Below, one piece after another: positions 1-38,764 of a stretch of DNA of 38,764 bases. Every line of letters starts with the position of its first letter. The first letter of the stretch is position 1. A program made the position numbers and the translations under genes. The notes below the pieces were generated by a model. That model saw nothing but the letters and a program-made list of their open reading frames with translations, searched no databases and was not told the DNA's origin. Source of the DNA: a virus; IMG/VR virus record IMGVR_UViG_3300047552_002153, positions 1 through 38,764 of that record; one strand, written 5' to 3'.

Positions 1-61
1 CATGACGGTACGTAGGATTTACACAAGTATGCTCGCGGTATTTGTACATTACGCCTCCAAT

Positions 62-77
62 TGTTTCACGTGGAACA
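62..77. promoter_or_regulatory. parS: parS-like centromere site (ParB/Spo0J binding sequence)
   Basis: The sequence is TGTTTCACGTGGAACA; its reverse complement is TGTTCCACGTGAAACA, the well-known universal bacterial parS consensus, matched at all 16 positions. It lies in the 44-nt gap between the terS stop and the Shine-Dalgarno of the next leftward gene, so coding constraint does not explain it. I found no second copy apart from its duplicate in the assembly overlap, and no parA or parB gene in the genome. By chance a given 16-mer is expected about 2e-5 times in 38.6 kb on two strands. A host ParB (CTPase clamp) would be the expected ligand. Confidence 0.75.
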
Positions 78-79
78 TT

Positions 80-93
80 GTTGCGGCCGCAAC
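80..93. repeat. 14-bp perfect palindrome next to parS
   Basis: GTTGCGG followed by CCGCAAC is a perfect 14-bp palindrome containing a NotI site. It sits two bases from the parS-like site and abuts the terS stop codon. It is two head-to-head copies of the GCAAC word that is over-represented in the first 3.2 kb. It could be a protein-binding site or a small hairpin at the end of terS. Its function is unknown. Confidence 0.5.
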
Positions 94-831
94 TTAGTCA
101 GAATTAGGTTCCAGTTCATCGCCGCCGCAACTCGTATCGCTGCCGCAAATCTCACCCTCTACCACTTCGGCGGCGAGGGGGATAACTTTAGCATCCTCTG
201 TGCCGCCGCGCTGTCTAACTTGCAATTTAATTCCCACCACAACTGTATTGCCAGCAGCGGCGGAGCTCTCCTGCTTTGCATACTCTGCTGGGTACCGCCG
301 CTCAAGGTACCATGCGCTCGCTTGCCACGCCCTTTGCCCCCATTTGAGGACATTTTGCTCGCATAACTCCTTGGTTCTCTTGGCGGCATAGGCTAAATTT
401 CTTTTGACCAAAGAGGCATAAAGTCGCGTTTTTGCGACTGCAACTGGATCCTGGCTCTCATTTGCCGCTTCAGCATCGAGCCACCGCAAATGCGTTCCAA
501 TGCTAATTCCTTCATTTTCAACAGCTTGCGACTCACACTCCCCGCAACTGATACGCTGCAAAATTTTCTGCTGGACCTCGGAAAGGTCGCATAATTGCGA
601 CTGTTGCTCAGGAACGAGTGCAACGGGGGTGAAAGATACCGGAGTCCTTGCCCACATTTTATGCTTCTCAAAAGAGTTGTGGCTGATATCCGGATACAAA
701 CTGTGAAATTCGGCGAAGGAGATTGTATCCCAATCCTTTATGAGAGGGAACCGCAACTTTGGGTTCTGCTTCCGTTTGGAGATTTTCAGCTCAGCATCTG
801 TAGCATCTGTAGCAACTGTATCTATATCCAT
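94..831 (-). CDS. terS: putative terminase small subunit
   Basis: About 245 residues. The family assignment rests on two features. A helix-turn-helix-like stretch in the middle (ILQRISCGEC...ISIGTHLRWLDAEA) resembles the DNA-recognition domain of many small terminases. A C-terminal stretch ending WQASAWYLERRYPAEYAKQ is a very common signature of phage TerS proteins. TerS binds the packaging initiation site and hands DNA to TerL. On the circular map this is the first gene of the leftward late block, about eight small genes upstream of terL. I chose the ATG at 831; an in-frame TTG at 858 exists but has no Shine-Dalgarno. The ATG coincides with the start point predicted from the strong promoter at 866-838, so the message may be leaderless. 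The pac site may lie in or near this gene, as in P22. Function is inferred from local motifs only. Confidence 0.6.
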   Translation of the reverse strand: MDIDTVATDATDAELKISKRKQNPKLRFPLIKDWDTISFAEFHSLYPDISHNSFEKHKMWARTPVSFTPVALVPEQQSQLCDLSEVQQKILQRISCGECESQAVENEGISIGTHLRWLDAEAANESQDPVAVAKTRLYASLVKRNLAYAAKRTKELCEQNVLKWGQRAWQASAWYLERRYPAEYAKQESSAAAGNTVVVGIKLQVRQRGGTEDAKVIPLAAEVVEGEICGSDTSCGGDELEPNSD

Positions 832-837
832 ATACCT

Positions 838-866
838 AATATACAGCAGCGGCGTCAACTTGTCAA
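838..866 (-). promoter_or_regulatory. strong sigma70-like promoter for the leftward late block
   Basis: On the minus strand TTGACA (866-861) is followed by a 17-bp spacer and TATATT (843-838). This is a perfect -35 and a near-perfect -10 at optimal spacing. The expected start point, seven bases downstream, is 831, the A of the terS ATG. Two operator-like palindromes lie immediately upstream at 874-888 and 905-919. Confidence 0.7.
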
Positions 867-873
867 CCAGAAT

Positions 874-888
874 CGGTAAATATTACTG
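874..888. promoter_or_regulatory. operator-like inverted repeat, GGTAA family, site 1
   Basis: CGGTAA-ATA-TTACTG, one mismatch from symmetry. It lies 7 bp upstream of the -35 of the late promoter and about three helical turns from the related site at 905-919. The same core recurs at 34644-34658 in front of the portal gene. This is the expected layout for an activator or repressor acting on both leftward promoters. Confidence 0.6.
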
Positions 889-904
889 ATATCGGCCGTT
901 CCTT

Positions 905-919
905 CGGTAATTTTTACCG
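905..919. promoter_or_regulatory. operator-like inverted repeat, GGTAA family, site 2
   Basis: CGGTAA-TTT-TTACCG, a perfect 15-bp inverted repeat with its centre 31 bp from site 1. It lies between the divergent early and late transcription units. It could also fold as a short hairpin, but there is no U tract, so an operator is preferred over a terminator. Confidence 0.6.
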
Positions 920-966
920 GCCGCACCTTGGCCGCAACCAGCAAATTAAGTAACTTATTAAGTAGT

Positions 967-982
967 GATACAAATTTGTATC
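967..982. promoter_or_regulatory. operator-like palindrome, GATACA family, site 1
   Basis: GATACA-AATT-TGTATC is a perfect 16-bp palindrome. It is 19 bp centre to centre from site 2, about two helical turns, as in adjacent dimer-binding operators. It lies in the divergent control region upstream of the first rightward genes. Confidence 0.7.
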
Positions 983-985
983 GCT

Positions 986-1001
986 GATACATAATTGTAT
1001 C
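986..1001. promoter_or_regulatory. operator-like palindrome, GATACA family, site 2
   Basis: GATACA-TAAT-TGTATC. The 6-bp arms are identical to the other two sites and only the central four bases vary. Paired with site 1. Confidence 0.7.
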
Positions 1002-1053
1002 GACCCTTAAGTCCTTGAAAATCAGCAACTTACAGCATTTATCCTATTTTCCT

Positions 1054-1069
1054 GATACAAAATTGTATC
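1054..1069. promoter_or_regulatory. operator-like palindrome, GATACA family, site 3
   Basis: GATACA-AAAT-TGTATC, identical arms, 68 bp from site 2 and about 37 bp upstream of the -35 of the first rightward promoter candidate. Two clustered sites plus one distal site resemble a cooperative or looping operator arrangement. The cognate protein is unknown; the three small RHH proteins of this genome are candidates. Confidence 0.7.
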
Positions 1070-1105
1070 CTGGTTTAAACGTTTAACAGCAACTGTAGCC
1101 CTTGC

Positions 1106-1134
1106 TTGCATGTTGGCATGATACTTGCGTTATT
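1106..1134 (+). promoter_or_regulatory. candidate first rightward promoter
   Basis: TTGCAT (1106-1111), 17-bp spacer, GTTATT (1129-1134), within a GC-to-AT transition downstream of the GATACA operators. The -35 box with its GC context matches the promoter at 1385 (also GCTTGCAT). The -10 is poor, and an alternative reading (TTGGCA, 15 bp, TATATG at 1134-1139) overlaps it. It would drive the 51-residue gene at 1212. Confidence 0.4.
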
Positions 1135-1211
1135 ATATGGGTGTAAGCAACTGAGGCAAACGAGCACCGGAAACACCGCTGATCTCAAAGCCCCGCAACA
1201 AAGGAACTACA

Positions 1212-1367
1212 ATGAAACAGCAGCAACAGCTTCAAGATTTTGCTCAGGCCTATGCAACCGGAACCATGGAAAATTACTGGGAAAAATATCCAATTGATCT
1301 TGGCTTCTCAACAGCAACTGAATTCGAAAGTCCTTTTGCCCTTAGCAAAACATGCAGCCGCAACTAA
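1212..1367 (+). CDS. small early protein, 51 aa, unknown
   Basis: ATG at 1212 with an AAGGA Shine-Dalgarno eight bases upstream. The product begins with a glutamine run (MKQQQQLQDFAQAYATGTMENYWEKYP) and ends SKTCSRN. It is the first gene of the rightward early block, 140 bp downstream of the GATACA operators and just upstream of another promoter (1385). I recognise no domain. The position is typical of host-takeover or regulatory peptides, but nothing in the sequence proves that. Confidence 0.55.
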   Translation: MKQQQQLQDFAQAYATGTMENYWEKYPIDLGFSTATEFESPFALSKTCSRN

Positions 1368-1384
1368 AATAAATAAAATAATGC

Positions 1385-1413
1385 TTGCATACACGCATAC
1401 AATATAGTATATT
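1385..1413 (+). promoter_or_regulatory. sigma70-like promoter
   Basis: TTGCAT (1385-1390), 17-bp spacer, TATATT (1408-1413), in an AT-rich stretch. It shares the TATATT -10, preceded by (G)TAG, with the promoters at 3377 and 7627. Expected start point near 1420, about 50 nt upstream of the 114-residue gene. Confidence 0.65.
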
Positions 1414-1470
1414 TTAATAGCGACAAACACTAACCGCCGCAAGGCAAACACCAACCGAAGGAGCAGTAAA

Positions 1471-1815
1471 ATGAAAACAGCAACGGTAGTACCCGCAGCA
1501 GCAGCAAAGTCCGAAGGCACCCTTTTGGAGCAAGTACATGCAATGCGAGCAGCGAAAGCTTTTGTAAGTGTGGAAGAGCGACTTGCTGACGGGATAATCA
1601 AGACACAAATTGCAACCGAAAACTATCGGAACATGATTGCTTTCTACCCGAAACTGACAAAATGTTTCACAACGTGGTTTTCGGAGCAGCCTTATGCTTT
1701 TACCGAAGGAGCCCACATAGTGGAAATCATGCATGCTTTTACATGCCACTGCAACAGCTTGCCCGAAGCCGAAGCGGAAGAAGCCGGAATAAAAGTGCCC
1801 GTAATCGAAGACTAA
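1471..1815 (+). CDS. early hypothetical protein, 114 aa
   Basis: ATG at 1471 with GGAG seven bases upstream. The N-terminus is alanine-rich (MKTATVVPAAAAKSEG). The rest looks largely helical, with an aromatic stretch (YRNMIAFYPKLTKCFTTWFSEQPYAF) and an acidic end (EAEAEEAG...VIED). No membrane segment and no recognised family. It lies in a run of short genes, each with its own Shine-Dalgarno and short A-rich spacers, typical of phage early regions. Confidence 0.75.
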   Translation: MKTATVVPAAAAKSEGTLLEQVHAMRAAKAFVSVEERLADGIIKTQIATENYRNMIAFYPKLTKCFTTWFSEQPYAFTEGAHIVEIMHAFTCHCNSLPEAEAEEAGIKVPVIED

Positions 1816-1856
1816 TAACTAACTAACAACCAACCAACAACCAAAAGGAGAATATC

Positions 1857-2078
1857 ATGAAAATCGAAACTGAAATGACAGCGTTAGAATCCCAGCAGTA
1901 TCTTGATGCGATTGCTCAGCAAAACAAACTGTGGGAGGGGCTCATGCGCCTCCCCAACGCCAAAATTCACCTTCAAAATTTCTGGAAGCATGCAGAGGCT
2001 TCGTGGACAGCAACTGTGACTATGAGCAAGCTGATCGAAGCTTTTGAACAATACTTGGCATTCGAAGTCAAAAACTAA
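1857..2078 (+). CDS. early hypothetical protein, 73 aa
   Basis: ATG at 1857 with a strong AAAAGGAG Shine-Dalgarno. Predicted all-helical, soluble and mildly acidic, with a pattern that could form an amphipathic coiled coil (ESQQYLDAIAQQNKLWEGLMRL). No family recognised. It follows the 114-residue gene by 41 nt and shares an A/C-rich leader style (aacaaccaac) with the next gene. Confidence 0.7.
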   Translation: MKIETEMTALESQQYLDAIAQQNKLWEGLMRLPNAKIHLQNFWKHAEASWTATVTMSKLIEAFEQYLAFEVKN

Positions 2079-2111
2079 CTAACCAAAACAACAACAATCC
2101 AAGGAGGCTGT

Positions 2112-2294
2112 ATGAACGCAACAACAACTAAGATGTACAAAAACATTTCCAATGCTACAGGATTGCCTGTAGCAACGCTGGAAATTATGGCAGTAGACCT
2201 TTTGCTCAAGAAACTTTGCCCGCCCAAAACGGAAGCGGGGAAAACTTTGGCGAAAATCTATGCTCACAAGGAGGGTAAACGTGGAACAAAGTAA
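2112..2294 (+). CDS. early hypothetical protein, 60 aa
   Basis: ATG at 2112 with a perfect AAGGAGG site. The product starts with NATTTKMYKNISNATGLPVATLEIMAVDLLLKKL and has a basic tail (HKEGKRGTK). A short helix-turn-helix-like pattern (GLPVATLEIMAVDLLL) can be imagined but is not diagnostic. Its end overlaps the next gene by 14 nt, so the two are probably translated together. Confidence 0.65.
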   Translation: MNATTTKMYKNISNATGLPVATLEIMAVDLLLKKLCPPKTEAGKTLAKIYAHKEGKRGTK

Positions 2295-2478
2295 GAAATT
2301 TTGTCTCACATGCTACCATTGGGAATTGCCGGGCATGTGTAAGCGGCGGGCACCGACCCGGAATTTACAATGCACCGAATGCTGTTTTCCGCCAACCCCT
2401 GCTCTTGAGAGATGTGGGGAATGGGAACCGGCAACGGCTGAGACGATGGCACTCCGTAAACAAACTTTACGGGGCTGA
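2281..2478 (+). CDS. small cysteine-rich, zinc-binding-type protein, 65 aa
   Basis: Start taken as GTG 2281, preceded by AAGGAGGG at 2269-2276 inside the upstream gene. The product has CLTCYHW, then GMCKRRAP, then CTECCFPPT, then CGEWEP. This is the CxxC...C...C...C spacing of small phage proteins thought to bind zinc, often ending in a C-x-W-E motif. Function is unknown; such proteins are common in early regions and may bind host proteins or DNA. An upstream in-frame ATG at 2260 has no good Shine-Dalgarno. Confidence 0.6.
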   Translation: MEQSKKFCLTCYHWELPGMCKRRAPTRNLQCTECCFPPTPALERCGEWEPATAETMALRKQTLRG

Positions 2479-2481
2479 AAA

Positions 2482-2516
2482 CAGTAGCCTACTCGCGTAT
2501 AGCGATGCGGCTACTG
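2482..2516 (+). repeat. leader hairpin containing repeated CTACTCGCGT element, copy 1
   Basis: CAGTAGCC (2482-2489) and GGCTACTG (2509-2516) form a perfect 8-bp stem around a loop holding CTACTCGCGTATAGC (2489-2503). A near-identical 15-mer recurs at 2860-2874. It precedes the Shine-Dalgarno of the membrane-protein gene by about 25 nt and may regulate its translation or mark a processing site. Confidence 0.5.
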
Positions 2517-2548
2517 ATAACCTGGACACCTGAGCAAAGGAGAATTTT

Positions 2549-2785
2549 ATGCAAGTACTGAAAGATCTGTTTTACCTCTTATGTTGGATTTTTGGCATCG
2601 GAACTGTCATTCTACTTCTGATTGGAGCCGCTAATTTGGTTCAGTGGGAGCAGCAACAGATGAAAATCGTACACACCCTCCACAAAGAAGTCCGTACCTA
2701 TGGCACACCTGTAAAAATTGAAGCTATGTGGGACGGGACGGATACGACATGGCTGTATAACGGGATTGAATACAACTTTAAATAA
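2549..2785 (+). CDS. small single-pass membrane protein, 78 aa
   Basis: ATG at 2549 with AAAGGAG. A strongly hydrophobic segment at residues about 7-30 (LFYLLCWIFGIGTVILLLIGAANL) is followed by a soluble C-terminal part (WEQQQMKIVHTLHKEV...). The topology is probably N-in or signal-anchor. Candidate roles for such early membrane proteins include superinfection exclusion and membrane takeover; a holin is less likely in an early unit. No family recognised. Confidence 0.7.
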   Translation: MQVLKDLFYLLCWIFGIGTVILLLIGAANLVQWEQQQMKIVHTLHKEVRTYGTPVKIEAMWDGTDTTWLYNGIEYNFK

Positions 2786-2859
2786 GGAGAGACTATTACC
2801 AGATGACCAGAGGCAAACTGTAACCCATGGTCCTGATATCCGATATCATTAAAACTCGT

Positions 2860-2874
2860 CTACTCGCGTGTAGC
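2860..2874 (+). repeat. CTACTCGCGTGTAGC leader element, copy 2
   Basis: This 15-mer differs from 2489-2503 at one base. Here CTAC...GTAG can pair as a 4-bp stem with loop TCGCGT. It lies 20-odd nt upstream of the RHH gene at 2898. Recurrence at the same place relative to two successive genes suggests a shared post-transcriptional signal. Confidence 0.5.
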
Positions 2875-2897
2875 ATCATCAAACAAAGGAGCAGCAA

Positions 2898-3074
2898 ATG
2901 AGCGAAGCAAAACATATACTGACAGCCCGGATATCCCGGGATAATTATGAAAAGTTGATCAATCTGTGCATCGAAAAGCATAAAACTATCACCGAATTGA
3001 TCAATATTTACATCGAAACTACACCTCTGGAAGCCAAAACAGCAACAGTTACAACGGCACAGCAGGAAAGTTGA
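2898..3074 (+). CDS. RHH-type small DNA-binding protein candidate, 58 aa
   Basis: ATG at 2898, Shine-Dalgarno AAAGGAG at 2884-2890. The product pattern is a short beta strand (HILTARIS), then helix 1 (DNYEKLINLCIEKHK), a turn, then helix 2 (TITELINIYIE). This is the Arc/CopG ribbon-helix-helix arrangement. A threonine- and glutamine-rich tail follows. RHH dimers bind palindromic operators with short half sites, and several such palindromes occur within 2 kb. It is one of three RHH-like proteins in this genome. It is the last gene before a 359-bp non-coding stretch containing two more palindromes. Confidence 0.6.
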   Translation: MSEAKHILTARISRDNYEKLINLCIEKHKTITELINIYIETTPLEAKTATVTTAQQES

Positions 3075-3095
3075 GGAAAATGAGCGGTGGGCAAC

Positions 3096-3117
3096 TATAT
3101 TTACTGGAGTAAATATA
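3096..3117. promoter_or_regulatory. 22-bp operator-like palindrome
   Basis: Arms TATATTTACT and AGTAAATATA (10 bp each, perfect) separated by GG. Flanking GCGG/CCGC blocks extend the symmetry loosely. It is located just after the stop of the RHH-like gene at 2898, and no T-run follows, so a binding site is favoured over a terminator. Confidence 0.55.
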
Positions 3118-3174
3118 TACCCCGCCGCAACAAAAAGCAAGTGAAAAATGAATAAAAATTTAGGTACTACCGTC

Positions 3175-3203
3175 TTGTCAAGAAAAAAAAGTGAAATTAT
3201 CTG
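3175..3203 (+). promoter_or_regulatory. weak promoter candidate
   Basis: TTGTCA (3175-3180), 17-bp purine-rich spacer, TATCTG (3198-3203). Good -35, mediocre -10. No gene starts for 230 nt downstream, so it would give a long leader to the gene at 3434. Confidence 0.3.
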
Positions 3204-3301
3204 TAACTCATTATTAGGACTCAAGATCTGCGTCCCGACAGTTTCAAATTTCGCGTATGATCTATGCCATCCATAGAGATGAAATCTAAGAGTTTATAGA
3301 G

Positions 3302-3327
3302 ATACAGTATAAAAGTATACAGTATAC
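3302..3327. promoter_or_regulatory. tandem ATAC/GTAT palindromes
   Basis: ATAC-A-GTAT (3302-3310) is followed after four A residues by GTATAC-A-GTATAC (3315-3327), a perfect 13-bp palindrome. The pair ends 49 bp upstream of the -35 of the promoter at 3377. The half site GTATAC is related to, but not the same as, the GATACA arms at 967-1069. Confidence 0.45.
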
Positions 3328-3376
3328 GCCGGATTCCAAGGTCTATAAAAACGATACTAAATATTTAAAATATATG

Positions 3377-3405
3377 TTGAATTTAAATATCAAATGTAGT
3401 ATATT
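3377..3405 (+). promoter_or_regulatory. sigma70-like promoter for the replication block
   Basis: TTGAAT (3377-3382), 17-bp spacer ending TGTAG, TATATT (3400-3405). The TGTAG-TATATT block is shared exactly with the promoter at 7627, and nearly with the one on the minus strand at 34694-34666. Expected start near 3412; the Shine-Dalgarno of the next gene follows at once. Confidence 0.7.
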
Positions 3406-3433
3406 TAAAACGAATATTAACCAAGGAGGAAAT

Positions 3434-3631: not shown

Positions 3632-3634
3632 ATT

Positions 3635-3916: not shown

Positions 3917-3924
3917 GACCAACC

Positions 3925-5487
3925 ATGCAACTGCACCCAGATACTCGATCTTGTTCCCCAGCTCCGGAAAAAGATGCTATAGATATCATCGAAGAACTGC
4001 AACTTGGAGATGTTCGATTAAATAAAACCGGTACAGGAATTATGATTAATACAACGTATTTACGTCCAGTTATCCTTGAGAAAGCATATATAGATAGTAG
4101 AGGGCGTAGATTTGCAGACATACAACCATATCAAATCCCATCTGTACTAATGGCCAATTTAATGGCTGTTTTAAATCGGTCTAAAGATTTATATAGTAAA
4201 GAAAAGCATCAAACAGCATTAATTTATGATACACCTATGGATTTTGTTAAAATACAAATTGAAGAAATAATGCGGATACGTATTACTGAAGATGATTTGA
4301 TTATCCGGGGTGAAGGTATTGAAGCTAAAGATATCTCTTTGGCACAGTTGGTTATGGAACTCCGTTATGCAGCACGGGAATATAACAAGACTCTTGACAA
4401 AGAGACACGGATAACCACACTATCAATGGAAGCTGTTAATGACACCGCGTCGATTTATATCGAACAAATGCGTAATGATCGACACATACAATTACGCAAA
4501 ATGATTGCCTATGATCCGGATGTAGCTTCCCATGTAAATGTAGATAAATTCATTGAAGGCCTCCTGGCCATATATCTTAAAACCCCAAGATATATAGATA
4601 TACTGATGTTCAAGCATATGATATGGCAAATTAAACGTAAAATATTTGCACTTAAACGCCCCTATTCATTGATGTACTTCATGTATTCCAAGACACAAGG
4701 CTACGGTAAAACTACTTTCTTCCAGATGCTCTTCAAACATTTTCAATGGGCATGGAGCAAACATGGAGACATTGCTAAAATGGTGGATACTAATAACCGC
4801 AAAGCTCTTATAAATAATAAGTATCTTGTTGACTGTCAAGAAACAGCTCTGGGAGGATACGAAGGTACTGATTTGGCGGATATATTAAAAATGGTGATTG
4901 AAGAGGATACCGTATCTCAACGACAGATGTATGGCACAACAGCGGAAGTAATACGAAATCCAGCGACTTTCGTTTCTACTACCAATAAACACGTATGGGA
5001 TGTTATAAAAGATACCGGGATGCGTCGATACTGGGAATGGGAATGCTCGGAAGAAGTACTTAAGGCTGATAAACAATTCTTCCTGCAATCAAAAGAGTAT
5101 TTCGACGATATCCTTGTTCTTTGGAGATCGATAGATGAAACTAATAATGAAGGGTTCTATCACCCCACTGTTCCTGGGTACGAAGAGGTTTGCGAATGTC
5201 AGCGGCTATATTGCAACAAACACTCTTTCTTCGTGATGTTGGATAAATATAAATGGTCTATTACTAAAGCCGACAATCCAGCAGCAGTTACAGTTGCTGC
5301 TTCGGAATTGCTGAATGTTTACAATAGATATATGGGATTTTTAGATCCTAAAGATAAATACAAACTTGCTGAATTACGTTACGCAATACGCAATAACGAT
5401 TTCGGGGATAGTACCATTATAGAAAAAGACGGACATAAATCCGAAGTATACTATTTATTAGGATACACGAAAGGAACAGTAAAATGA
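3925..5487 (+). CDS. phage replicative helicase, SF3 / DUF5906-like ATPase
   Basis: 520 residues. The C-terminal half is a P-loop ATPase: Walker A SKTQGYGKTT (about residues 255-264), acidic Walker B-like YLVDCQET (about 300-307), sensor-like FVSTTNKH (about 349-356), and a conserved GMRRYWEWEC (about 365-374) that would supply the arginine finger. This order is that of superfamily 3 helicases such as phage primase-helicases of the D5/VirE-like group. The N-terminal ~220 residues show no primase zinc finger or DxD motif that I can recognise, so primase activity is uncertain. It overlaps the polymerase gene by four bases (ATGA), so the two are coupled. Role: unwinding at the phage origin ahead of the polymerase. 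Confidence 0.8.
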   Translation: MQLHPDTRSCSPAPEKDAIDIIEELQLGDVRLNKTGTGIMINTTYLRPVILEKAYIDSRGRRFADIQPYQIPSVLMANLMAVLNRSKDLYSKEKHQTALIYDTPMDFVKIQIEEIMRIRITEDDLIIRGEGIEAKDISLAQLVMELRYAAREYNKTLDKETRITTLSMEAVNDTASIYIEQMRNDRHIQLRKMIAYDPDVASHVNVDKFIEGLLAIYLKTPRYIDILMFKHMIWQIKRKIFALKRPYSLMYFMYSKTQGYGKTTFFQMLFKHFQWAWSKHGDIAKMVDTNNRKALINNKYLVDCQETALGGYEGTDLADILKMVIEEDTVSQRQMYGTTAEVIRNPATFVSTTNKHVWDVIKDTGMRRYWEWECSEEVLKADKQFFLQSKEYFDDILVLWRSIDETNNEGFYHPTVPGYEEVCECQRLYCNKHSFFVMLDKYKWSITKADNPAAVTVAASELLNVYNRYMGFLDPKDKYKLAELRYAIRNNDFGDSTIIEKDGHKSEVYYLLGYTKGTVK

Positions 5488-7625
5488 AAAACGTAGCGAT
5501 TGATTTTGAGTACAATCATCCGTCTGACCCTGGCATGGGATTGCTGTCATGCGCTTTGCAAGTAGAGAAAGGCGTTACTCTAACGTATTGGCTGGCGGAT
5601 CCATTGCAGAAGGAAGGCTTAATAACTATCCTTAATCAGCTCAAAAAGGATCACGTATTCATCGGCTATGAGATCCATCTTGCCGAGGCTCGTTGTTTTG
5701 CGGCATTAGGGATGAATCCTAATGATTTTAAATGGAGAGATTTAATGGCGGAATGGCGTTGGCTCAGGTCCGAAACCAATGAGTACAAGTATGGGCACAT
5801 AGTTAAGAACAACGTGGCCATGTTCACTATCCCTAAACAAGTACGTTTACAGAAGCGTATGACGGATGACGAGTTGGAGCTTGCAAATGAAGTTAATACC
5901 GCCCAACTTGCTGACGCTCAGGAAGACTGTGATGTAGAGGTGGCCTTTGACGAAGCCGGATATTCGTTGCTGGATTGCTGTTATTTCTTTGAGACCATTA
6001 CTTTGGATGATTATCGTGCTGCTGCAAAGGTAAAAGAGACTATCAGAGACGGGTTGATTATGAGCTGTAACGCTGAACTTATCGAGAGCCGGAAGCATGA
6101 GATACTTTCATACAATGCAGCGGATATAAAGGACATGCATATACTCGCTGCAAAACTCACGGAGGAAATGCACAAAGTTTCCGAAGATATACATATCCAA
6201 CTTAAAGACGGATACGTTGACAGTAAAGAACTTGATATAGCAACCATACAGTTGAATCTCGGGGATTGGTGTGCGAGGACAGCCAAGTATGCATATCGCG
6301 GTATACCTATTAACAAGACCCGGCTTGAAACATTTCTTAAAATAGTTCCTACTTTGACCCAGGAAATTAAAGAGACTTGGAACAGAGATTATCCTGCGGA
6401 ACCTTTGTATCGTGTAGGCTTAGGGGGTACGATACTTAAGGCACGTAAAAGTATGGCGAACAATAGCCCATATAAAACAGGTACGCTGACAAAAGATACA
6501 GCTATGCTGCAGGATCTGATCGCCAATTATTGCAAAGCCAATGATATTGACAATTGGCCTAAGACCCGCAAAGGAGTATACTCTACGGATAAGAAAACAG
6601 TTTCAACTTTTGCTTCGGCTGAAAATATCATTAAACAGTATGAACGTCATTCAGGGAAACTATCAAACTTAAAGGCTTTCAGTGTTGGTAAAGACGGTAA
6701 AGTGGATGCGCTACGCTATATTGGTTCTGACAGTCGTCAGAGACCGGATTTTGCACCGCATGGCACACAAACCGACCGCAATGCACATAAGGCCAAAAGT
6801 TTAATTTTTGCTATGACTCATTGGATGCGTATCCTTATGGATCCGGAACCCGGTATGGCTTTTGTCGAATGCGACTATGGCTCGGAAGAAATCTTTATAG
6901 CGGCTGTGTTACATGGTGACCGAGTGATGGAACAAGCCTATGCTACTCATGATTTTTATGTCGCTTACGCCCAACTGGTTGGTATGTATCCTTCGGATTT
7001 ACCTATCCCAACAGAAGCTGAACGTGAAGCAAAAGCAGAATGGTGGCAACCGTATGCAGGTATACGTACTATTACTAAAACTCTCTGTTTAAGTTTACAA
7101 TATGGAGCGGGTTATAAATCTGTTGCTCAGGCTATTGCAATAGCTACCAAAGAGCCTATTGATGTCGACGCCGCTAAACAACTTGTAGCAGAGTATCATG
7201 ATACTTATCAGGATTTGACCTCCAGTATAGGGAGACTAAAGGCGGAGTATCAATCTAAAGTCAATATCGTATTGCCTAATGGATGGCGTTTAGGTAAAGA
7301 CTCTCAAAGTATTTTATCCGCCTGTAATGTCCCTGTACAAGGTACCGGTTCCTGTATTTTGCAGGAAGCATGTAAACGTATAGATGATGCGGGTATCGAT
7401 GTCATAGCCACAATGCATGATGCTATAACTGTATATTGTAAAGAAGCAGAAGCTGAGACAGTTGCTGAGACTATGAAACAGCAAATGATTGACGCCGCCG
7501 AAGCTGTGCTTGGTAAAAGAGGTATGAAAGTAGGAGCTCCGGAGATTATCAAACATGGTGATTGGTGGCAGCATGGCAGCAAAGGCAAGAAAGATTGGGA
7601 ATTATATAAGAAATATTTTATTTAG
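5484..7625 (+). CDS. polA: family A DNA polymerase with 3'-5' exonuclease domain
   Basis: 713 residues, T7-like in size. Exo I is AIDFEY (D7, E9) and Exo III is YNAAD (Y210, D214); Exo II is degenerate (GYEIHLAEARCF, about 61-72). Polymerase motif A is VECDYGSEEI (catalytic D464, steric-gate E469). Motif B is R528-xxx-K532-xxx-L536-xxx-Y540-G. Motif C is MHDA (H645, D646). Two points are unusual. The residue equivalent to E. coli Phe762 is Leu536, a variant known from environmental phage polymerases. Motif C reads HDA where HDE is usual. It follows the helicase with ATGA overlap and is transcribed from promoter 3377. With the SSB and 5'-3' exonuclease downstream it forms a T7-style replication set. 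Confidence 0.93.
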   Translation: MKNVAIDFEYNHPSDPGMGLLSCALQVEKGVTLTYWLADPLQKEGLITILNQLKKDHVFIGYEIHLAEARCFAALGMNPNDFKWRDLMAEWRWLRSETNEYKYGHIVKNNVAMFTIPKQVRLQKRMTDDELELANEVNTAQLADAQEDCDVEVAFDEAGYSLLDCCYFFETITLDDYRAAAKVKETIRDGLIMSCNAELIESRKHEILSYNAADIKDMHILAAKLTEEMHKVSEDIHIQLKDGYVDSKELDIATIQLNLGDWCARTAKYAYRGIPINKTRLETFLKIVPTLTQEIKETWNRDYPAEPLYRVGLGGTILKARKSMANNSPYKTGTLTKDTAMLQDLIANYCKANDIDNWPKTRKGVYSTDKKTVSTFASAENIIKQYERHSGKLSNLKAFSVGKDGKVDALRYIGSDSRQRPDFAPHGTQTDRNAHKAKSLIFAMTHWMRILMDPEPGMAFVECDYGSEEIFIAAVLHGDRVMEQAYATHDFYVAYAQLVGMYPSDLPIPTEAEREAKAEWWQPYAGIRTITKTLCLSLQYGAGYKSVAQAIAIATKEPIDVDAAKQLVAEYHDTYQDLTSSIGRLKAEYQSKVNIVLPNGWRLGKDSQSILSACNVPVQGTGSCILQEACKRIDDAGIDVIATMHDAITVYCKEAEAETVAETMKQQMIDAAEAVLGKRGMKVGAPEIIKHGDWWQHGSKGKKDWELYKKYFI

Positions 7626-7626
7626 C

Positions 7627-7655
7627 TTGCGCGCATGCAATTATTGTAGTATATT
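7627..7655 (+). promoter_or_regulatory. sigma70-like promoter downstream of polymerase
   Basis: TTGCGC (7627-7632), 17-bp spacer ending TGTAG, TATATT (7650-7655), beginning two bases after the polymerase stop. The upstream half contains GCGCGC and GCATGC symmetry. It should feed the RHH-like gene at 7681 and the SSB, giving these products an extra supply relative to the polymerase. Confidence 0.7.
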
Positions 7656-7680
7656 AGTAGTACACAAGGAAGGAGGATAT

Positions 7681-7830
7681 ATGAGTAAAGCGACAACGGT
7701 TTTATACTTGAGAGTAGATCCGGAACTTTTTGAGTGGATCGAGAAGCAAGCGGACGCAAAGGGGATATCGTTAAACCTGTATGCAACAGCAATCCTTACC
7801 GACTACAAACAGAAACACAAACAGCAGTAA
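7681..7830 (+). CDS. Arc-like ribbon-helix-helix protein, 49 aa
   Basis: ATG at 7681 preceded by AAGGAGG. The product is a textbook short RHH: beta strand TTVLYLRVDPE, helix FEWIEKQADAKG, helix SLNLYATAILTDYKQKHKQQ. At 49 residues it matches Arc-family repressors in size. It has its own promoter 25 nt upstream and sits directly before the SSB gene. Likely a DNA-binding dimer of dimers, possibly controlling its own promoter or the operators at 874-1069. The target is not determined. Confidence 0.75.
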   Translation: MSKATTVLYLRVDPELFEWIEKQADAKGISLNLYATAILTDYKQKHKQQ

Positions 7831-30028: not shown

Positions 30029-31297
30029 TTAGACATGCAGGATTTTGCAAGCCCAATCCCGACGAAGTTCCGCAAGTCCAAAGAAAATATCCATACGGCT
30101 AAGATATCTTGCATTGGCAATGTCGTAACCACGGAGGAACCGGATGTTGAAATTATCCTGGCTGACGGAAGCACCTTTGATGTATTCCGGCATACGAAGC
30201 GGAACCGACGCAAACGCAAACGACTTCGGTGAGAACACAAGGTTCATACCATAAGCAGTTGACGCAGCTGTCGGAACAGCAGTCGTTCCGTCAAGAGCAC
30301 CAAGGGTGATTGTGCTGGATCCCAGTGTCGGTGCAGCAGAAACGTTCTGCAACGGACCGGAAGTATAAATCGGAGGTTCGAAAGTGATCGTACCTTCGCC
30401 ACCTGAAGACGTAACATCAGCAGTAACCACGCAGAATTGTTTAAGATACGACAGAGTCTGCTTGGTCTCATAGTTAACAGCCTTGACACCGCTGATGGTA
30501 AAACATTCACCGACTTTGATCGTACCAGTTGTGGTAGAATCCGAGTCGTAAACGAGTGTACCGGGAGCAGCAGCAAGCCAACCAGTCGTCGCTTTAACCC
30601 GAAGGCCATCCGCAACGTGGTCGGAACTACCAGTGGTAAGTGTCGGAAGAATCTGGCTCATGTACCAATCAAACCCAGCAGCCATACTCATCTGACCTTT
30701 GAGGAACAACTCACTGATGTTCTGCATCGGGTTGTACTGTCCAGCAAGTCCATTGACAATCTTGCGCTCAGAAACAGGATCGATAATAGCACAAAGGCCA
30801 CTTTCGACTGGGACGAGGTTGGATTTCAATTTAGAACCGGCTTCCAGGTATGTATCGATGGTCGTCGGAACAGCAAGAGCTGTAGCGGCAACAGTGTTGG
30901 CAATACGGTCTGCCATAAACTGAGCGCACTGAGCATCAACTGCCGCTGCGAGACGTTTTGCAGGCACTTCGATATAACGTTTCTCGAAGTCGTCGATAGT
31001 AGTAGCCATATCTGCGTCACTGAATTTAAGATCCACACCATAGACAGTGTCAATGGTAAGAGTCTTGTATGTTTCAGTGATATCCTGTTGCTGCATTCCC
31101 CAACCTGAACGGACAGTAGTCTGGATAGGCTCTCTCACGTTAAGGACAGGTCCGATTTTCTGACCTTCGAAACCAACTTGGGTTCCGAAATTCTTTTCAT
31201 AGCTATGGTCAAGGTTTTTGGCAATGACCAAATTGCTATGGAACACTTCCAGGAACTGCCTGGTAATGTCCAAATTGGTTACTCTTGTATCGCCCAT
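30029..31297 (-). CDS. major capsid protein, P22 gene-5-type, 422 aa
   Basis: ATG at 31297 with AAGGA. Length and features match the P22 coat family (about 430 residues). The N-terminal part is NLDITRQFLEVFHSNLVIAKNLDHSYEKNF, with G-x-K-x-G-x-V-x-N-V-R-x-P. The middle has VPAKRLAAAVDAQCAQFMADRI, and the family's late signature MPEYIKGASVSQDNFNIRFLRGYDIANARYLSRMDIFFGLAELRRDWACKIL closes the protein. An inserted domain is expected around 220-340, as in P22. It assembles with scaffold and portal into the procapsid. The phage GroES homologue may help fold it. Confidence 0.92.
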   Translation of the reverse strand: MGDTRVTNLDITRQFLEVFHSNLVIAKNLDHSYEKNFGTQVGFEGQKIGPVLNVREPIQTTVRSGWGMQQQDITETYKTLTIDTVYGVDLKFSDADMATTIDDFEKRYIEVPAKRLAAAVDAQCAQFMADRIANTVAATALAVPTTIDTYLEAGSKLKSNLVPVESGLCAIIDPVSERKIVNGLAGQYNPMQNISELFLKGQMSMAAGFDWYMSQILPTLTTGSSDHVADGLRVKATTGWLAAAPGTLVYDSDSTTTGTIKVGECFTISGVKAVNYETKQTLSYLKQFCVVTADVTSSGGEGTITFEPPIYTSGPLQNVSAAPTLGSSTITLGALDGTTAVPTAASTAYGMNLVFSPKSFAFASVPLRMPEYIKGASVSQDNFNIRFLRGYDIANARYLSRMDIFFGLAELRRDWACKILHV

Positions 31298-31309: not shown

Positions 31310-32194
31310 TTATTTAAGTTTGTACTTCTGTCGTCTACGCCAAACCATCCATTCCGCATCGGACATTTTACTCGGGTCGACATTGCCCGAATCCGCCTTT
31401 GATGCGAGTGGTTTGATCGGAGCAGGAGCTTTCGATACTTGTTTGGCTGCTGGTATCGATTTGCGTCCTTTCTCTGCTTCGAGTCTAACCTCCAGTTTAC
31501 CTAATTCCTTGATCGCTAAGTGAGGCTCAAGCTTAGAGATCCGTTCGGCCAAGTCCTCGTCTTTTGCTAAAGCGTAAATCAACTCTGCGGAAACATCCGA
31601 ATCAATTATTGATCGCTGCACAACAGGAATAAATTGCACTGTTGATTCACTAACCACTTCATCGAAATCCGGGTGTTCTTTTCTCGCTTCATTGGTCTTA
31701 CTCTCCAACACTTTCCGAGACTCTTGAACCTTTTGCTCATTAAACTTCTGCTCAAATTCCGCCCTTACAATTGAAATATTGTAAAGGTTTACAGCATTAT
31801 AATATTCGGCATCACTATTAAACTGATTCCGCTCAGGGATATCTGCCTGTTGCGGTTGTGCTGCCTGTTGTTGCTCAATTTTCTCCTTGGCTGCTAATTT
31901 CGCCTCGGCTTCAAAAGCCCGCTGCATGAACTTCTTCATGCGTCGCTTATCATGCAAATCGTCTGGGTCGGGCTGTACATCCTCCGGTTTTAGTGGAACC
32001 GTTAAAGGATCGATTTCTTTTTTAGCTTCATCAGTTTTTGCTGATTCAGCTTCAACTTGTTCTGTCTCACCCCTATCCGCTTTATTTTCAGCGGCTGCTT
32101 TTACTTCATGTTCAAGTGTTTCAACTGATACATCTGTACTACCTTTTACCTCAGGCGTTGCCTGGGATGTTGGCTCCAAAGTTTGCTGTTCCAT
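31310..32194 (-). CDS. scaffolding protein, 294 aa
   Basis: ATG at 32194, inside the last 44 bases of the portal gene. The composition is that of a scaffold: acidic, helical, rich in Glu, Lys, Ala and Gln, no cysteine. An acidic proline-rich segment (PLKPEDVQPDPDDLHDKRRMKKF) is followed by coiled-coil (EAKLAAKEKIEQQQAAQ and FEQKFNEQKVQESRKVLESKTNEARKEH). The C-terminus MSDAEWMVWRRRQKYKLK is a basic helix-turn-helix like the coat-binding end of P22 gp8. The gene order portal-scaffold-coat confirms the role. It should be released from the procapsid during packaging. Confidence 0.8.
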   Translation of the reverse strand: MEQQTLEPTSQATPEVKGSTDVSVETLEHEVKAAAENKADRGETEQVEAESAKTDEAKKEIDPLTVPLKPEDVQPDPDDLHDKRRMKKFMQRAFEAEAKLAAKEKIEQQQAAQPQQADIPERNQFNSDAEYYNAVNLYNISIVRAEFEQKFNEQKVQESRKVLESKTNEARKEHPDFDEVVSESTVQFIPVVQRSIIDSDVSAELIYALAKDEDLAERISKLEPHLAIKELGKLEVRLEAEKGRKSIPAAKQVSKAPAPIKPLASKADSGNVDPSKMSDAEWMVWRRRQKYKLK

Positions 32195-34607
32195 AATACG
32201 GTCCTGACTCGGATTCCTCCGGCGTTACTGTCTCACCTGACCTGGTGGAAGGTTGCTGCATCGCAGCTATCTTAACCGCAGCATTCAGCCCGTGAGCATG
32301 CGAAGCCCCCTGCTGCTTTAATTGCTCTTTTACTAAATCCAGTTGTGCTTTATATGCATCCGCTTGAGTTTTCATATGTTGCACCTGCAACCTTGCTGAA
32401 ATTTCAGCGGATTTATCCTGCAACTGTTGCTGAGCTTGCTGCAACATTTGGCTTAGTTGCTGCTTCTGTTGATCATCGACCTGGGTCTGCTGCATCAGTT
32501 TTTGGATATCCCCCGTCATCTGTTGGACCTGTGCTTTGAGTTGTTGCTCCGGAGTGCCAAGTTCCTCTTGATCCAACAGACCAGGGTATGTCATATTCAG
32601 GAATTTCTTCATACGAGCAACGATCTTATCGCTACCCGGTATGTCAGAAACCTGAGCAAAAATGTCAATAAGTACCATAGAAAGTTGCGGTGCCGTCTGC
32701 ATAAGCATCCCAAGCATATCCTGGGTTTCCTGACGGCGAGTATCGTAGTTCGGACCTGAAGTTACGATTACACTGTATTTTCCAACGGTCAAATCATAAA
32801 GTCGGTCGTTATCCTCAAGATCCTTATGTACCTGATTAACCTGGATAACCCGATCCGTCATGTCTTCACCAACTATGCGGAGTACCCGGGGAGTATCATA
32901 GATTACCGGGATTACATCAACTAAATAGTTCCCAAGGGAGCGGATAGCACGTTCGTAACTGTTAACAAAATGATAAGTAGCCAATGCGCCTTGATTTGCA
33001 CGAGCCTGAATAGCTTTTCCGGTACGTTCATTACTCGTTGCCCCCATGCTGGCATCATGCAACCCGGAAACATCTTTCATAAATTCACCAGCATATTGGA
33101 TACCGCTAAGGATAGCCGTACCAACTTCTGGAGGAGTTATGCGAGAAGGCGGGGGTACTTGATTGCCTTTAAGATCCGTGGCTTTATAGGGTAAATAGGG
33201 TAAAGGCTTATTTGCGTTGTCCCAGAATTCCTTATACCCAGTAATTTGATTCTCTTCTACTAAAAATGGAGCTTTAGGTGCATTTGCAATAATTTCTGTG
33301 AATGCCGAATACCAAAAATTCAGCATCTTTTGCGGCTCTTTGAGATAACGAGTTAGGGAAATGTAGTGCTTAATCCCATCAACAATTGATTCTTTACCTA
33401 CGATGGGGAATATAGGAATAATTTTGCCGGGTAACTTACGAGACTCAAGGATTTCAAATTGGGTAATTAAATACCAATTTATTTCCTTTCTACATACGTC
33501 TCTTTCCTGAAGCGGAGTTACATCTTTGGGAATTTCAGTGGAAAATGCAGGAGGTTCCCCATTTTCCCCAGGCAATAGATATAATTTTTCAATTTTATCT
33601 TCAACAACGAAATATTCAGCGAGATAAATGTTATCTTTATCCGTCCAACGATCATCCCCAACGCCTTGGACATCAAAAGTCTTGAAATCATCAACTTTAT
33701 CTGGATATTTTTTCTTGAAATCCGCTTTACTCATCTTTTGACGCACGAAACAATACGGAGCATCAGCGAAATCCAACGTTTTCATGGTATGTAGAGGGAA
33801 ATATACTGAACATGGGTTCTCTACACGGTCAATTCGGATCTCTTGATCGAATGAATCATCATCGCAGTAGTCAGTAAGAGCCCTGAAATAACCAAATCCA
33901 CCTGATACTGCATAATCATATGCTGTATCTAATGCACTTTTGCTGTCACCCTGATTCAAAATGTGCCGGATAATACCAGAAATCACATCCGCCGTAGCTG
34001 GATCCGTTACAGAGTCCACTGGACGAACCCGAACCCCTGGAGTATTCTGAAGCCCTTGGTTTACAACGATATTGATGAAAGAATCTATGCGGTTAATCGT
34101 CTGCATCGGGCGTTGATCCCGTTGCCGTTCCTGTGCGGAACTCTCCGGCCATTGCATACCAGCTTTAAACTTAATATCATCAACGAATTCCGCTCGCATT
34201 TGATCAGTATGATCGCAAATGTCGGTATACCGGGTCATCGCTGTAGCAAGAAACTCAGTTTTCTCAGCCTCCGTCATTTTTGGAGGGGGAACTGTATGCT
34301 GCAACTGTGCATATTCGGATTTTAACACATAAATTTGAAGGGTATACTCATCAATTTGAACTTGTGTGCGGTTGTATTCGGTATTAAATTCATCGAGGGA
34401 TTTTATCTCTTCATCACTAACTTGTACAATTTTACCGAGTACTATCGAGCGAGGATCCTGTACAAGAGTTGCAAATTCCCCCTCTTGCTCCGTCCTAAAT
34501 CCATGCAACACTGCCTCTTCAACCAATATTTCAATCGCGTCATTACCAATACCTTTCTTACTAAGTCCCATCTGCTTGAAAGGTACGTATGTAAACAGTT
34601 GCGGCAT
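32151..34607 (-). CDS. portal protein, P22-type, 818 aa
   Basis: ATG at 34607 with GAGG. A P22-type portal core runs from about residue 150 (FKAGMQWPESSAQERQRDQRPMQTINRIDSFINIVVNQGLQNTPGVRVRPV) through DTAYDYAVSGGFGYFRALTDY and MSKADFKKKYPD. It ends in a long Gln-rich coiled coil (QQVDDQQKQQLSQMLQQAQQQLQDKSAEISARLQ, about 695-730) equivalent to the P22 barrel. The N-terminal ~125 residues add a further helical region. At 818 it is longer than P22 gp1 (725). It forms the dodecameric DNA channel, docks TerL and later the gp4-like factor. It has its own promoter and operator upstream (34694-34641). Confidence 0.9.
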   Translation of the reverse strand: MPQLFTYVPFKQMGLSKKGIGNDAIEILVEEAVLHGFRTEQEGEFATLVQDPRSIVLGKIVQVSDEEIKSLDEFNTEYNRTQVQIDEYTLQIYVLKSEYAQLQHTVPPPKMTEAEKTEFLATAMTRYTDICDHTDQMRAEFVDDIKFKAGMQWPESSAQERQRDQRPMQTINRIDSFINIVVNQGLQNTPGVRVRPVDSVTDPATADVISGIIRHILNQGDSKSALDTAYDYAVSGGFGYFRALTDYCDDDSFDQEIRIDRVENPCSVYFPLHTMKTLDFADAPYCFVRQKMSKADFKKKYPDKVDDFKTFDVQGVGDDRWTDKDNIYLAEYFVVEDKIEKLYLLPGENGEPPAFSTEIPKDVTPLQERDVCRKEINWYLITQFEILESRKLPGKIIPIFPIVGKESIVDGIKHYISLTRYLKEPQKMLNFWYSAFTEIIANAPKAPFLVEENQITGYKEFWDNANKPLPYLPYKATDLKGNQVPPPSRITPPEVGTAILSGIQYAGEFMKDVSGLHDASMGATSNERTGKAIQARANQGALATYHFVNSYERAIRSLGNYLVDVIPVIYDTPRVLRIVGEDMTDRVIQVNQVHKDLEDNDRLYDLTVGKYSVIVTSGPNYDTRRQETQDMLGMLMQTAPQLSMVLIDIFAQVSDIPGSDKIVARMKKFLNMTYPGLLDQEELGTPEQQLKAQVQQMTGDIQKLMQQTQVDDQQKQQLSQMLQQAQQQLQDKSAEISARLQVQHMKTQADAYKAQLDLVKEQLKQQGASHAHGLNAAVKIAAMQQPSTRSGETVTPEESESGPYYGTANFGANIPGNA

Positions 34608-34697: not shown

Positions 34698-36317
34698 CTA
34701 ATTGCTCATCCACGAATCCGACCCACCTTCGCGTTCCCTACGCCCAAATGTATAAGTGATTGGCGAGTGTGATTTTCCAGGTTCCGCCCACTTGTATTTC
34801 GGATCCGCCATCCCCGCATACATTATCCGTAGAGTGTCGCTCATGTCTTTATATTTCGGATGTTCGGCCTCGGACTTCTCTTCCAATCTATGGTTCCGCA
34901 TAGACTGAATTAAGTTGACACATGCAGGATCGATGTATAAATTACTATGATTAGTTGCGGACGTATCCAATAAGATATTGACTTCCATATCTTTAATGAT
35001 ATTCATCCGCTGCAAGTCAATCACATTCACCGGTGGACACTCGAAACTCAACCCGCCGTTCTCATGCTTCAGAAACTCCTCAACGATACCTGATGTAGAA
35101 TTCGACCATATTGCGACACCGCCCGACCCTGTCGCAAAGCGTGTATCTATGAATCGTGCTTTCATTTCCAACCCGAACTCTTTCTCTCCACCCCGATGCA
35201 TAAACTTCGTTGCTAAGTCCTTAATTGTTCCAGTGTAAAGTAACGTGGTACGCAGTTTTGAATAGTAGTCGCTGAAATCATCATAGGAAGGATACTCCGC
35301 ATAAACGTATCGAATCATTTCCCCATACTCATCCGGGAAATGCGCCATCCATAAACAAGCAGGGTGATACTTTTGTGCCGGATCCATCGCCATGAAGAAA
35401 TTTGCTTTGGATTTCAACTGCAATAAATCAAAGTGCCGAACATGTCTATCCTCGTTGAACATCGGATAGATCTTCCGCCCCGCCATAAGAGGCTCACCTA
35501 ACCAGACATTATCATACTCCCATCGCCTATGAGCAAAATCATTCTCACGGTTCTTCTTGGCTTCCGGAGTCAAATACGCTTCAACTGGATTCCCATCTTC
35601 CCCCACCTGCAGGATTGGCTTGCCTTCAGCATCTATCCTGACGTTACCCTTTTCATCTACTTCCTCTTTGTAAAACCCTTCAATATCATGGGAGTTGATC
35701 TTCTTTACAATTGCATCTTTAGGCGGAGTAACTACCCAACGTTGATACGTTGGGTCATCCTGATAGCGGGTATTGAATGAAATCAGGATCTCGGAACCCG
35801 GGGCACGTATCGTCGGGATCAGGTGTTTCCAGGAATCCTCGGAAACGTTTTCAGCTTCTACTACTCGGGCAAGGGTGATACCCTCCATCGATTTCAGGTT
35901 ATGGGGATCCCGATATAACCCTGCAAAACAGAACAAAGACCCATTGATGCAGGCTATCTGGTCATCCCGGAACACCCATTTCTTGCTTAACCCCAGCTCG
36001 AAAATTCTATCCTTGATCGTCTGGTATACTGATCTTTTTATGGACGTCATTACTTCTCGTCCATACAGGATACGATGGGGCTTCCGCAACGATCTTTCGA
36101 TCAATCCGGTTTTGATCCCGTATCCTCTTCCTATGTCTTTTGCTATCGCTTTTATGTCCGCTTCGGTATACTTCGGATCATACAGCATCGCCAGCAAAAG
36201 ATCACAGTGGATAGTATTCCAGTCCTTTCCCGCATTACGACCTCCGTAAATCACTTTGTATCTGGAGGGCTCCAACAGGAATAGATATGGTTGGGGGATA
36301 TCGATTACAGCATCCAT
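34698..36317 (-). CDS. terL: terminase large subunit, Sf6/PBSX-type (Terminase_3)
   Basis: 539 residues. Walker A is VIYGGRNAGKD (residues 22-32), Walker B ITLARVVEAEN (about 147-157), followed by SEDSWKHLIPTIRAPGSEILISFNTRYQDDPTYQRWV, the highly conserved coupling region of this family. The C-terminal nuclease has FFMAMDPAQ (D312) and ARFIDTRFATG (D391). An odd feature is Asp32 where the P-loop normally has Ser or Thr after GK. An acidic hydrophilic insertion (about 219-246) separates the domains. This class usually packages headfuls from a pac site, consistent with the circular assembly. The ATG overlaps the previous stop by one base (TAATG). Confidence 0.92.
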   Translation of the reverse strand: MDAVIDIPQPYLFLLEPSRYKVIYGGRNAGKDWNTIHCDLLLAMLYDPKYTEADIKAIAKDIGRGYGIKTGLIERSLRKPHRILYGREVMTSIKRSVYQTIKDRIFELGLSKKWVFRDDQIACINGSLFCFAGLYRDPHNLKSMEGITLARVVEAENVSEDSWKHLIPTIRAPGSEILISFNTRYQDDPTYQRWVVTPPKDAIVKKINSHDIEGFYKEEVDEKGNVRIDAEGKPILQVGEDGNPVEAYLTPEAKKNRENDFAHRRWEYDNVWLGEPLMAGRKIYPMFNEDRHVRHFDLLQLKSKANFFMAMDPAQKYHPACLWMAHFPDEYGEMIRYVYAEYPSYDDFSDYYSKLRTTLLYTGTIKDLATKFMHRGGEKEFGLEMKARFIDTRFATGSGGVAIWSNSTSGIVEEFLKHENGGLSFECPPVNVIDLQRMNIIKDMEVNILLDTSATNHSNLYIDPACVNLIQSMRNHRLEEKSEAEHPKYKDMSDTLRIMYAGMADPKYKWAEPGKSHSPITYTFGRREREGGSDSWMSN

Positions 36318-38003: not shown

Positions 38004-38041
38004 CGGAACCCCCGTTGCTGGATCAGCAAATCCATTTAGGT

Positions 38042-38322: not shown

Positions 38323-38520
38323 TTATACCTTTGGCTGACGCGGCGGCAGCAAAGGGTTAAGTGGATCCGCCGCTCTCAGCTCATCGATTAAGCGGTTAAT
38401 AGCGGCATATTGCGCCAGTATCATCTTACACAGCTCCGCCTTGCCTATAGTCGCCATAGGCTTGGAGAACATCATGGCCACGCGCTCACACGCATCGCCT
38501 TCTATTGTTCCGTTAACCAT
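38323..38520 (-). CDS. hypothetical protein, 65 aa
   Basis: The ATG at 38520 overlaps the upstream gene by eight bases, and a GGAG lies upstream in that gene (GACAGGAGCAACTC). The product MVNGTIEGDACERVAMMFSKPMATIGKAELCKMILAQYAAINRLIDELRAADPLNPLLPPRQPKV is helical with a proline-rich end and no membrane span. No family recognised. It is the third leftward gene on the circle. Confidence 0.6.
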   Translation of the reverse strand: MVNGTIEGDACERVAMMFSKPMATIGKAELCKMILAQYAAINRLIDELRAADPLNPLLPPRQPKV

Positions 38521-38686
38521 TGAGTTGCTCCTGTCCTATCCTCGCATGTCCCGGATTTGCATCAAGCTCTTTACCTATCTCTTCCGGATACCAAAAATAC
38601 CCGCATAAATTACATCGGTACATATCTTCAAAATCATCATGACGGTACGTAGGATTTACACAAGTATGCTCGCGGTATTTGTACAT
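38513..38686 (-). CDS. small zinc-ribbon-like protein, 57 aa (spans the assembly overlap)
   Basis: ATG at 38686 (equivalent to position 49 in the left copy) with a GGAGG site. The product MYKYREHTCVNPTYRHDDFEDMYRCNLCGYFWYPEEIGKEL has HTC...CNLC spacing suggesting one zinc site. On the circle it is the second leftward gene, after terS. The parS-like site lies just upstream of its Shine-Dalgarno, so a bound ParB could influence its expression or that of the whole late block. It is interrupted in the linear listing only by the choice of contig ends. Confidence 0.65.
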   Translation of the reverse strand: MYKYREHTCVNPTYRHDDFEDMYRCNLCGYFWYPEEIGKELDANPGHARIGQEQLNG

Positions 38687-38764
38687 TACGCCTCCAATTG
38701 TTTCACGTGGAACATTGTTGCGGCCGCAACTTAGTCAGAATTAGGTTCCAGTTCATCGCCGCCG
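38638..38764. repeat. terminal direct repeat, right copy (assembly overlap)
   Basis: Second copy of the 127-bp overlap. It carries duplicates of the parS-like site (38699-38714) and of the NotI-type palindrome (38717-38730). It also completes the reading frame of the small gene that starts at 38686. Confidence 0.9.
38699..38714. promoter_or_regulatory. parS: parS-like site, duplicate in assembly overlap
   Basis: This is the same site as 62-77, repeated only because the circular contig overlaps itself by 127 bp. It should be counted once. Confidence 0.7.

Follow-up and report, generated by a model that had tools for sequence, protein, structure and literature searches.

Phage phi29 is carried into the Bacillus spore by a host centromere-binding protein. 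Specifically, the part of PMC9437464 that cites Meijer 2005 relates that the phi29 genome enters the spore by means of the host protein Spo0J. Phi29 is virulent and has no ParB of its own, and we found four copies of an identical parS 16-mer in its genome and no ParB match. The viral use of a host centromere, which the sequence-only reading of the DNA analysed here had presented as a new strategy, is therefore not new. A related arrangement is found in the integrative element SGI1, which lacks ParAB and stabilises itself via its parS copies and the ParAB of an IncC plasmid acting in trans; in the same system, extra parS copies destabilise the ParABS replicon that serves as the helper (PMC10954446). 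According to published biochemistry, ParB is loaded at parS as a CTP-dependent clamp, slides along the DNA, and makes contacts with ParA and SMC. Our literature search for orphan parS sites on phages, which covered few subscription papers, returned nothing beyond phi29 and SGI1. A different solution is seen in P1, N15 and other phage-plasmids, which have their own ParA, their own ParB and their own parS.

We analysed a stretch of 38,764 nucleotides, IMG/VR virus record IMGVR_UViG_3300047552_002153, which is hereafter called the window. The window phage is a P22-like podovirus. The two ends of the window are a perfect direct repeat of 127 bp, and the genome is therefore a circle of 38,637 bp in which the parS-type sequence found at both ends is one and the same site. 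The features that matter for the analysis are the following:

1..127 (= 38638-38764): terminal direct repeat, perfect, representing the contig overlap of the circular map
62..77: parS site, with a second reading at 38699..38714 via the 127-bp terminal repeat
94..858, minus strand: terminase small subunit (terS), which opens the leftward late block (phrog_4102, E=4.4e-12)
838..866, minus strand: promoter-like TTGACA-17-TATATT ahead of terS (consensus match only)
967-982, 986-1001 and 1054-1069: operator-like array of three perfect palindromes GATACANNNTTGTATC in the divergent early/late control region
3925-5487: VapE-like helicase of the replication block
5484..7625, plus strand: family A DNA polymerase, part of the phage's own replication block
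7555..7830, plus strand: Arc-like ribbon-helix-helix protein of the early block (phrog_582, E=1.1e-5; weak phrog_876 matches)
8739-9683: 5'-3' exonuclease of the replication block
30029..31297, minus strand: P22-type coat protein (phrog_283, E=9.7e-57)
32151..34607, minus strand: P22-like portal protein (tblastn, 37% to P22-like portals, E=2e-111)
34698..36317, minus strand: terminase large subunit (phrog_3717, E=2e-30)
38513..38686, minus strand: small ORF (57 aa) downstream of parS, matching no family

The late block runs leftward from terS through terL, portal, scaffold, coat and an Hc3 head closure protein to the DNA ejection and tail proteins, and the early block with the helicase, polymerase and exonuclease runs rightward. 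The terS product also matched PF20901 (Sf6_terminase) at E=5.5e-5, which is under the family cut-off, and this gene more likely begins with an ATG at about 831 than with the TTG at 858. Early and late genes diverge from a control region that spans approximately 860-1200, and the operator-like array within it lies ∼0.9-1.0 kb from parS. The three GATACANNNTTGTATC palindromes are probably operators of a phage repressor. The Arc-like protein, which probably starts at an internal ATG, is one repressor candidate, and weak repressor-like small proteins are also encoded at 2898-3074 and 3374-3631. The late block downstream of parS additionally encodes a GroES-like co-chaperonin (37311-37586; phrog_3188, E=1.1e-12) and a protein with a weak match to Dam-type DNA adenine methyltransferases (37590-38096; PF05869, E=2.2e-4, under the cut-off). 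Two short words are locally enriched: GCAAC on the plus strand, with 29 of its 74 copies within the first 4 kb of the window, and likewise CCGCAA, with 11 of 22 copies in positions 1-4000. No tRNA genes were found in the window.

The 16-mer TGTTTCACGTGGAACA at positions 62-77 reads TGTTCCACGTGAAACA on the minus strand and is an exact match to the 16-bp near-palindrome TGTTNCACGTGNAACA of chromosomal-type parS, the loading site of ParB/Spo0J. It is the sole site in the genome within 3 mismatches; at that tolerance the real window gave 4 matches, compared to a mean of 0.3 in 100 dinucleotide shuffles. From the base composition, 1.9e-5 occurrences of the exact 16-mer are expected, and 0.8-0.9e-4 when degenerate forms are allowed. 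The site is located in a 44-nt gap (50-93) between the terS stop (94) and the start of the next late gene (38686 = 49), at 17 nt from terS and 12 nt from the ATG of the 57-aa gene, with a GGAGG ribosome-binding site in between. On the minus (sense) strand the terS stop is followed by TGTTCCACGTGAAACA, ATTGGAGGCGTA and ATG, in that order, which means that parS lies immediately 5' of the ribosome-binding site. The sequence-only reading thus held: a perfect consensus parS, in a 44-nt intergenic gap, with about 2e-5 copies expected by chance. We are confident in predicting that the site is a genuine ParB loading site.

Profiles for ParB (PF02195, ParB_N) and ParA (PF13614, ParA-type AAA_31) gave no match in the six frames of the window, even at E ≤ 1, in agreement with the earlier statement that this phage has neither parA nor parB. 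A centromere on a phage genome is thus shared with P1 and N15, but the phage-encoded ParA and ParB that characterise phage-plasmids are absent. Neither tyrosine (PF00589) nor serine (PF00239) recombinases, by which an integrating temperate phage would be recognised, were found in the window, and the window proteins that were scanned included no recognisable plasmid-type Rep. As in phi29, parS is present without a phage ParB (in the window, ParA is absent as well), and the 16-mers of the two phages are identical to the letter. The differences are that phi29 has a linear, protein-primed genome of 19 kb with four sites and infects a sporulating host, whereas the window phage has a P22-like circular genome of 38.6 kb with one site, beside terS, instead of several. 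Like the window phage, SGI1 is a mobile element that lacks ParAB, and its parS serves the ParAB of another replicon (as is predicted for the window), but it employs a plasmid-type parS and a plasmid ParB, and it is an integrative element rather than a phage. The same 16-mer is also present in the Otagovirus phages of Pseudomonas syringae (the phiPsa374 group), which at 98 kb are unrelated to the window phage. PhiPsa374 carries it once per copy of its terminal repeat and has no ParB; this position at the genome terminus is comparable to that of the window site beside terS.

Searches for relatives gave little. No close relative was found in IMG/VR with the window TerL, TerS and DNA polymerase as queries, and no prophage relative in GTDB genomes with the portal. 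A coat-protein profile search returned distant P22-like loci only, with major capsid proteins at most 36% identical, and TGTT[TC]CACGTG[AG]AACA was absent from 80 of these distant loci and from four isolates. The best match of the DNA polymerase (27.5%) was to a Silvanigrella phage, which we considered and dropped as a pointer to the host. Beyond this weak polymerase match, none of the 23 window proteins tested has a counterpart in that phage, which also lacks parS. For these reasons no host is named.

The parS 16-mer is widespread in viral DNA. IMG/VR contains it in at least 120 stretches of DNA; the reversed word was found in 1 stretch, and a control word in which CACGTG was kept and the arms were permuted was found in 4. 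Among the matches listed, 46 of the 50 longest IMG/VR carriers had no ParB_N above the family cut-off. Only 48% of the IMG/VR sites listed were inside ORFs of at least 100 aa, compared to 79% of random positions, and the sites displayed a symmetric flank preference, A at -1 and T at +1, that was absent from the query. The ORF avoidance and the flank preference are both signs of selection on the sites.

Two further observations concern the orientation of the sites. Among intergenic sites between co-directional ORFs in the IMG/VR loci listed, 21 read TGTTCCACGTGAAACA in the sense direction, like the window, and 8 do not; this bias is modest and was seen post hoc, and a DNA palindrome should be indifferent to orientation. 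The other observation is a tailed phage of 116,662 bp and ∼65% GC, IMGVR_UViG_3300037518_000322 (terL, portal, head protease, tape measure, DNA polymerase and primase), which has 24 exact parS sites in a single orientation, clustered at 91.7-95.7 kb and 105.8-112.4 kb, and no ParB above the cut-off. In the printed flanks its sites are located in gaps between minus-strand genes, just 5' of ribosome-binding sites and start codons. This layout is similar to that of stoperator arrays.

Isolated phages were searched as a set of 50,697 records (2.3 billion bases). The 16-mer with three flank versions (18-mer queries) matched 92, 125 and 80 records, and the reversed control none; these counts are lower bounds since only matches of at least 17 bases were detectable, and many of the records are near-identical strains. 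Of the other parS 16-mers, the palindromic variant matched 198 records and the TGTTCCACGTGGAACA variant 41. Relative to the control words, parS sites are thereby over-represented in phages 30- to 120-fold or more. The carriers named include phages of Pseudomonas, Bacillus, Stenotrophomonas, Listeria, Acinetobacter, Arthrobacter, Microbacterium, Gordonia, Lactobacillus and Enterocloster, as well as microviruses. Ten of the 11 isolated carriers that were checked in full had no ParB match, and several of the carriers are, like the window phage, single-site. The inovirus bajarodino virus 3 (PQ006097.1) has six canonical palindromic parS sites in 6.2 kb without a ParB, and related bajarodino viruses are alike, with 10-12 matches when both strands are counted. 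Enterobacterial phages make up a large share of the isolated-phage collection, and Enterobacteriaceae are not known to have chromosomal ParABS. The enterobacterial carriers among the matches listed were a single Klebsiella group, mostly jumbo phages, with the TGTTCCACGTGGAACA variant in coding sequence. As a contrast this scarcity, which is based on the names among the matches listed, is suggestive only.

In some carriers the site is near a genome end: at 389 of 98,287 in phiPsa374, ∼1 kb from the right end in DrRobert, and at ∼0.1 kb in Emotion and ∼2.3 kb in Woes. In NoPa and Paschalis it is located elsewhere. The near-end trend is a post hoc observation rather than a test. The pac site of P22-like phages is usually in or near terS.

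A markedly different result was obtained for plasmids. In a set of 7.3 billion bases, the 18-mer query that matched 92 phage records matched only 12 records, most of which are chromosome-sized replicons. Plasmids are thus practically without this type of parS, an indication that stable maintenance is poorly served by a borrowed host centromere.

The window site is very likely an orphan parS meant for host ParB. Both the phi29 precedent and the enrichment of unrelated phages in orphan parS sites lend good support to this part of the sequence-only reading, in which a phage with neither ParA nor ParB offers a parS to the ParB of its host. Given the known biochemistry, host ParB is predicted to load on the phage DNA at parS. 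Once the genome has been injected and has circularised, ParB-CTP clamps of the host would load at the lone site beside terS and slide across the neighbouring few kilobases. The infecting genome could then travel as a passenger of the host segregation machinery, i.e. ParA and the nucleoid and, through ParB, the SMC complex. The likeliest benefit would be that the phage DNA is kept and correctly placed when a slow, starving or dividing cell is infected and lysis is deferred, which would make the strategy of the window phage a generalised form of the use that phi29 makes of Spo0J. We consider the chances evenly balanced that this explanation, with host ParB loading in trans and the phage DNA retained or placed via host segregation, is correct in full. 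The spore inheritance of phi29 and the stabilisation of SGI1 by parS led us to rank tethering or inheritance during deferred lysis first among the possible uses, although we propose this as the main use of the site only tentatively. Counting against the explanation are the distant P22-like loci, which lack the site, the near absence of the site from plasmids, which makes a simple maintenance benefit less likely, and the presence of one site as opposed to four in phi29.

The plasmid result bears on two other explanations in opposite ways. The sequence-only reading had proposed that the phage persists outside the chromosome as a stable, plasmid-like prophage and relies on the host ParABS system for its segregation. 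In line with this, the genome is circular, no tyrosine or serine recombinase was found, and there is an Arc-like repressor candidate together with an operator-like array. However, a plasmid-type Rep was not seen among the proteins scanned, replication is served by a polymerase, a helicase and an exonuclease that the phage itself encodes, and bona fide plasmids almost never carry this type of parS. The lack of an integrase fits the proposal, the plasmid contrast weakens it, and such a lifestyle seems improbable. The same contrast keeps alive the idea that the site acts as a decoy in a takeover of the host, where replicated parS copies would soak up ParB and ParA/SMC and thereby disturb host segregation or free the nucleoid. 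Plasmids must spare the host chromosome and practically lack the site, and phages have it in abundance. Phages with many copies exist as well (24 in the 116-kb tailed phage and 6 in the 6.2-kb inovirus), but inoviruses usually leave their host alive, and a single site per genome would be a weak decoy before replication. In the SGI1 system, a ParABS replicon is destabilised by extra parS copies (PMC10954446), while the phi29 data (PMC9437464) favour segregation into the spore. On balance, a decoy function is possible but rather doubtful.

The position of the site among the late genes, near the divergent control region, also keeps a regulatory role alive. ParB spreading from parS, which is situated between late genes 1 and 2 and ∼0.9 kb from the region with the three operator-like palindromes, could cover terS and the divergent region at ∼0.86-1.2 kb and damp or delay the late genes, perhaps together with the Arc-like repressor. 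The ParB of P. aeruginosa is reported to repress promoters adjacent to parS3 and parS4 (PMC5521831). The single-orientation sites just 5' of ribosome-binding sites and start codons in the 24-site phage and the 21:8 sense bias of the IMG/VR loci listed would also fit such control, but this bias is modest and post hoc, and about half of the phage sites listed are inside ORFs. Transcription control is unlikely as the explanation of the site. The 16-mer could also be a chance word without function. No relative close enough for a comparison of conservation was found, the search of many windows for many known motifs leaves room for lucky matches, and the coding parS-like word of the Klebsiella jumbo-phage group may be such a case. 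Against this, only ∼2e-5 copies were expected, the site is intergenic, and it belongs to a class whose frequency exceeds that of the controls 30- to 120-fold or more; we regard chance as very improbable.

Beyond the window, the recruitment of host ParB by an orphan parS might be recurrent in phages at large, including virulent tailed phages, inoviruses and microviruses from many bacterial groups, and be selected in phages and counter-selected in plasmids; we see this as neither more nor less probable than its opposite. The window phage would then be a P22-like example with the site by its packaging gene. The viral use of a host centromere was already known from phi29 and Spo0J, and the surprising part is its apparent breadth in phages combined with its near absence from plasmids. 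This contrast between phages and plasmids hints at a benefit during infection rather than in long-term maintenance. Tractable pairs of host and phage are available in P. syringae/phiPsa374, P. putida/NoPa, B. subtilis/phi29 and Arthrobacter/DrRobert. If ParB is indeed loaded on phage DNA in many hosts, a supposed housekeeping protein would be a common phage target, and non-sporulating hosts would have a counterpart of the use of Spo0J by phi29.
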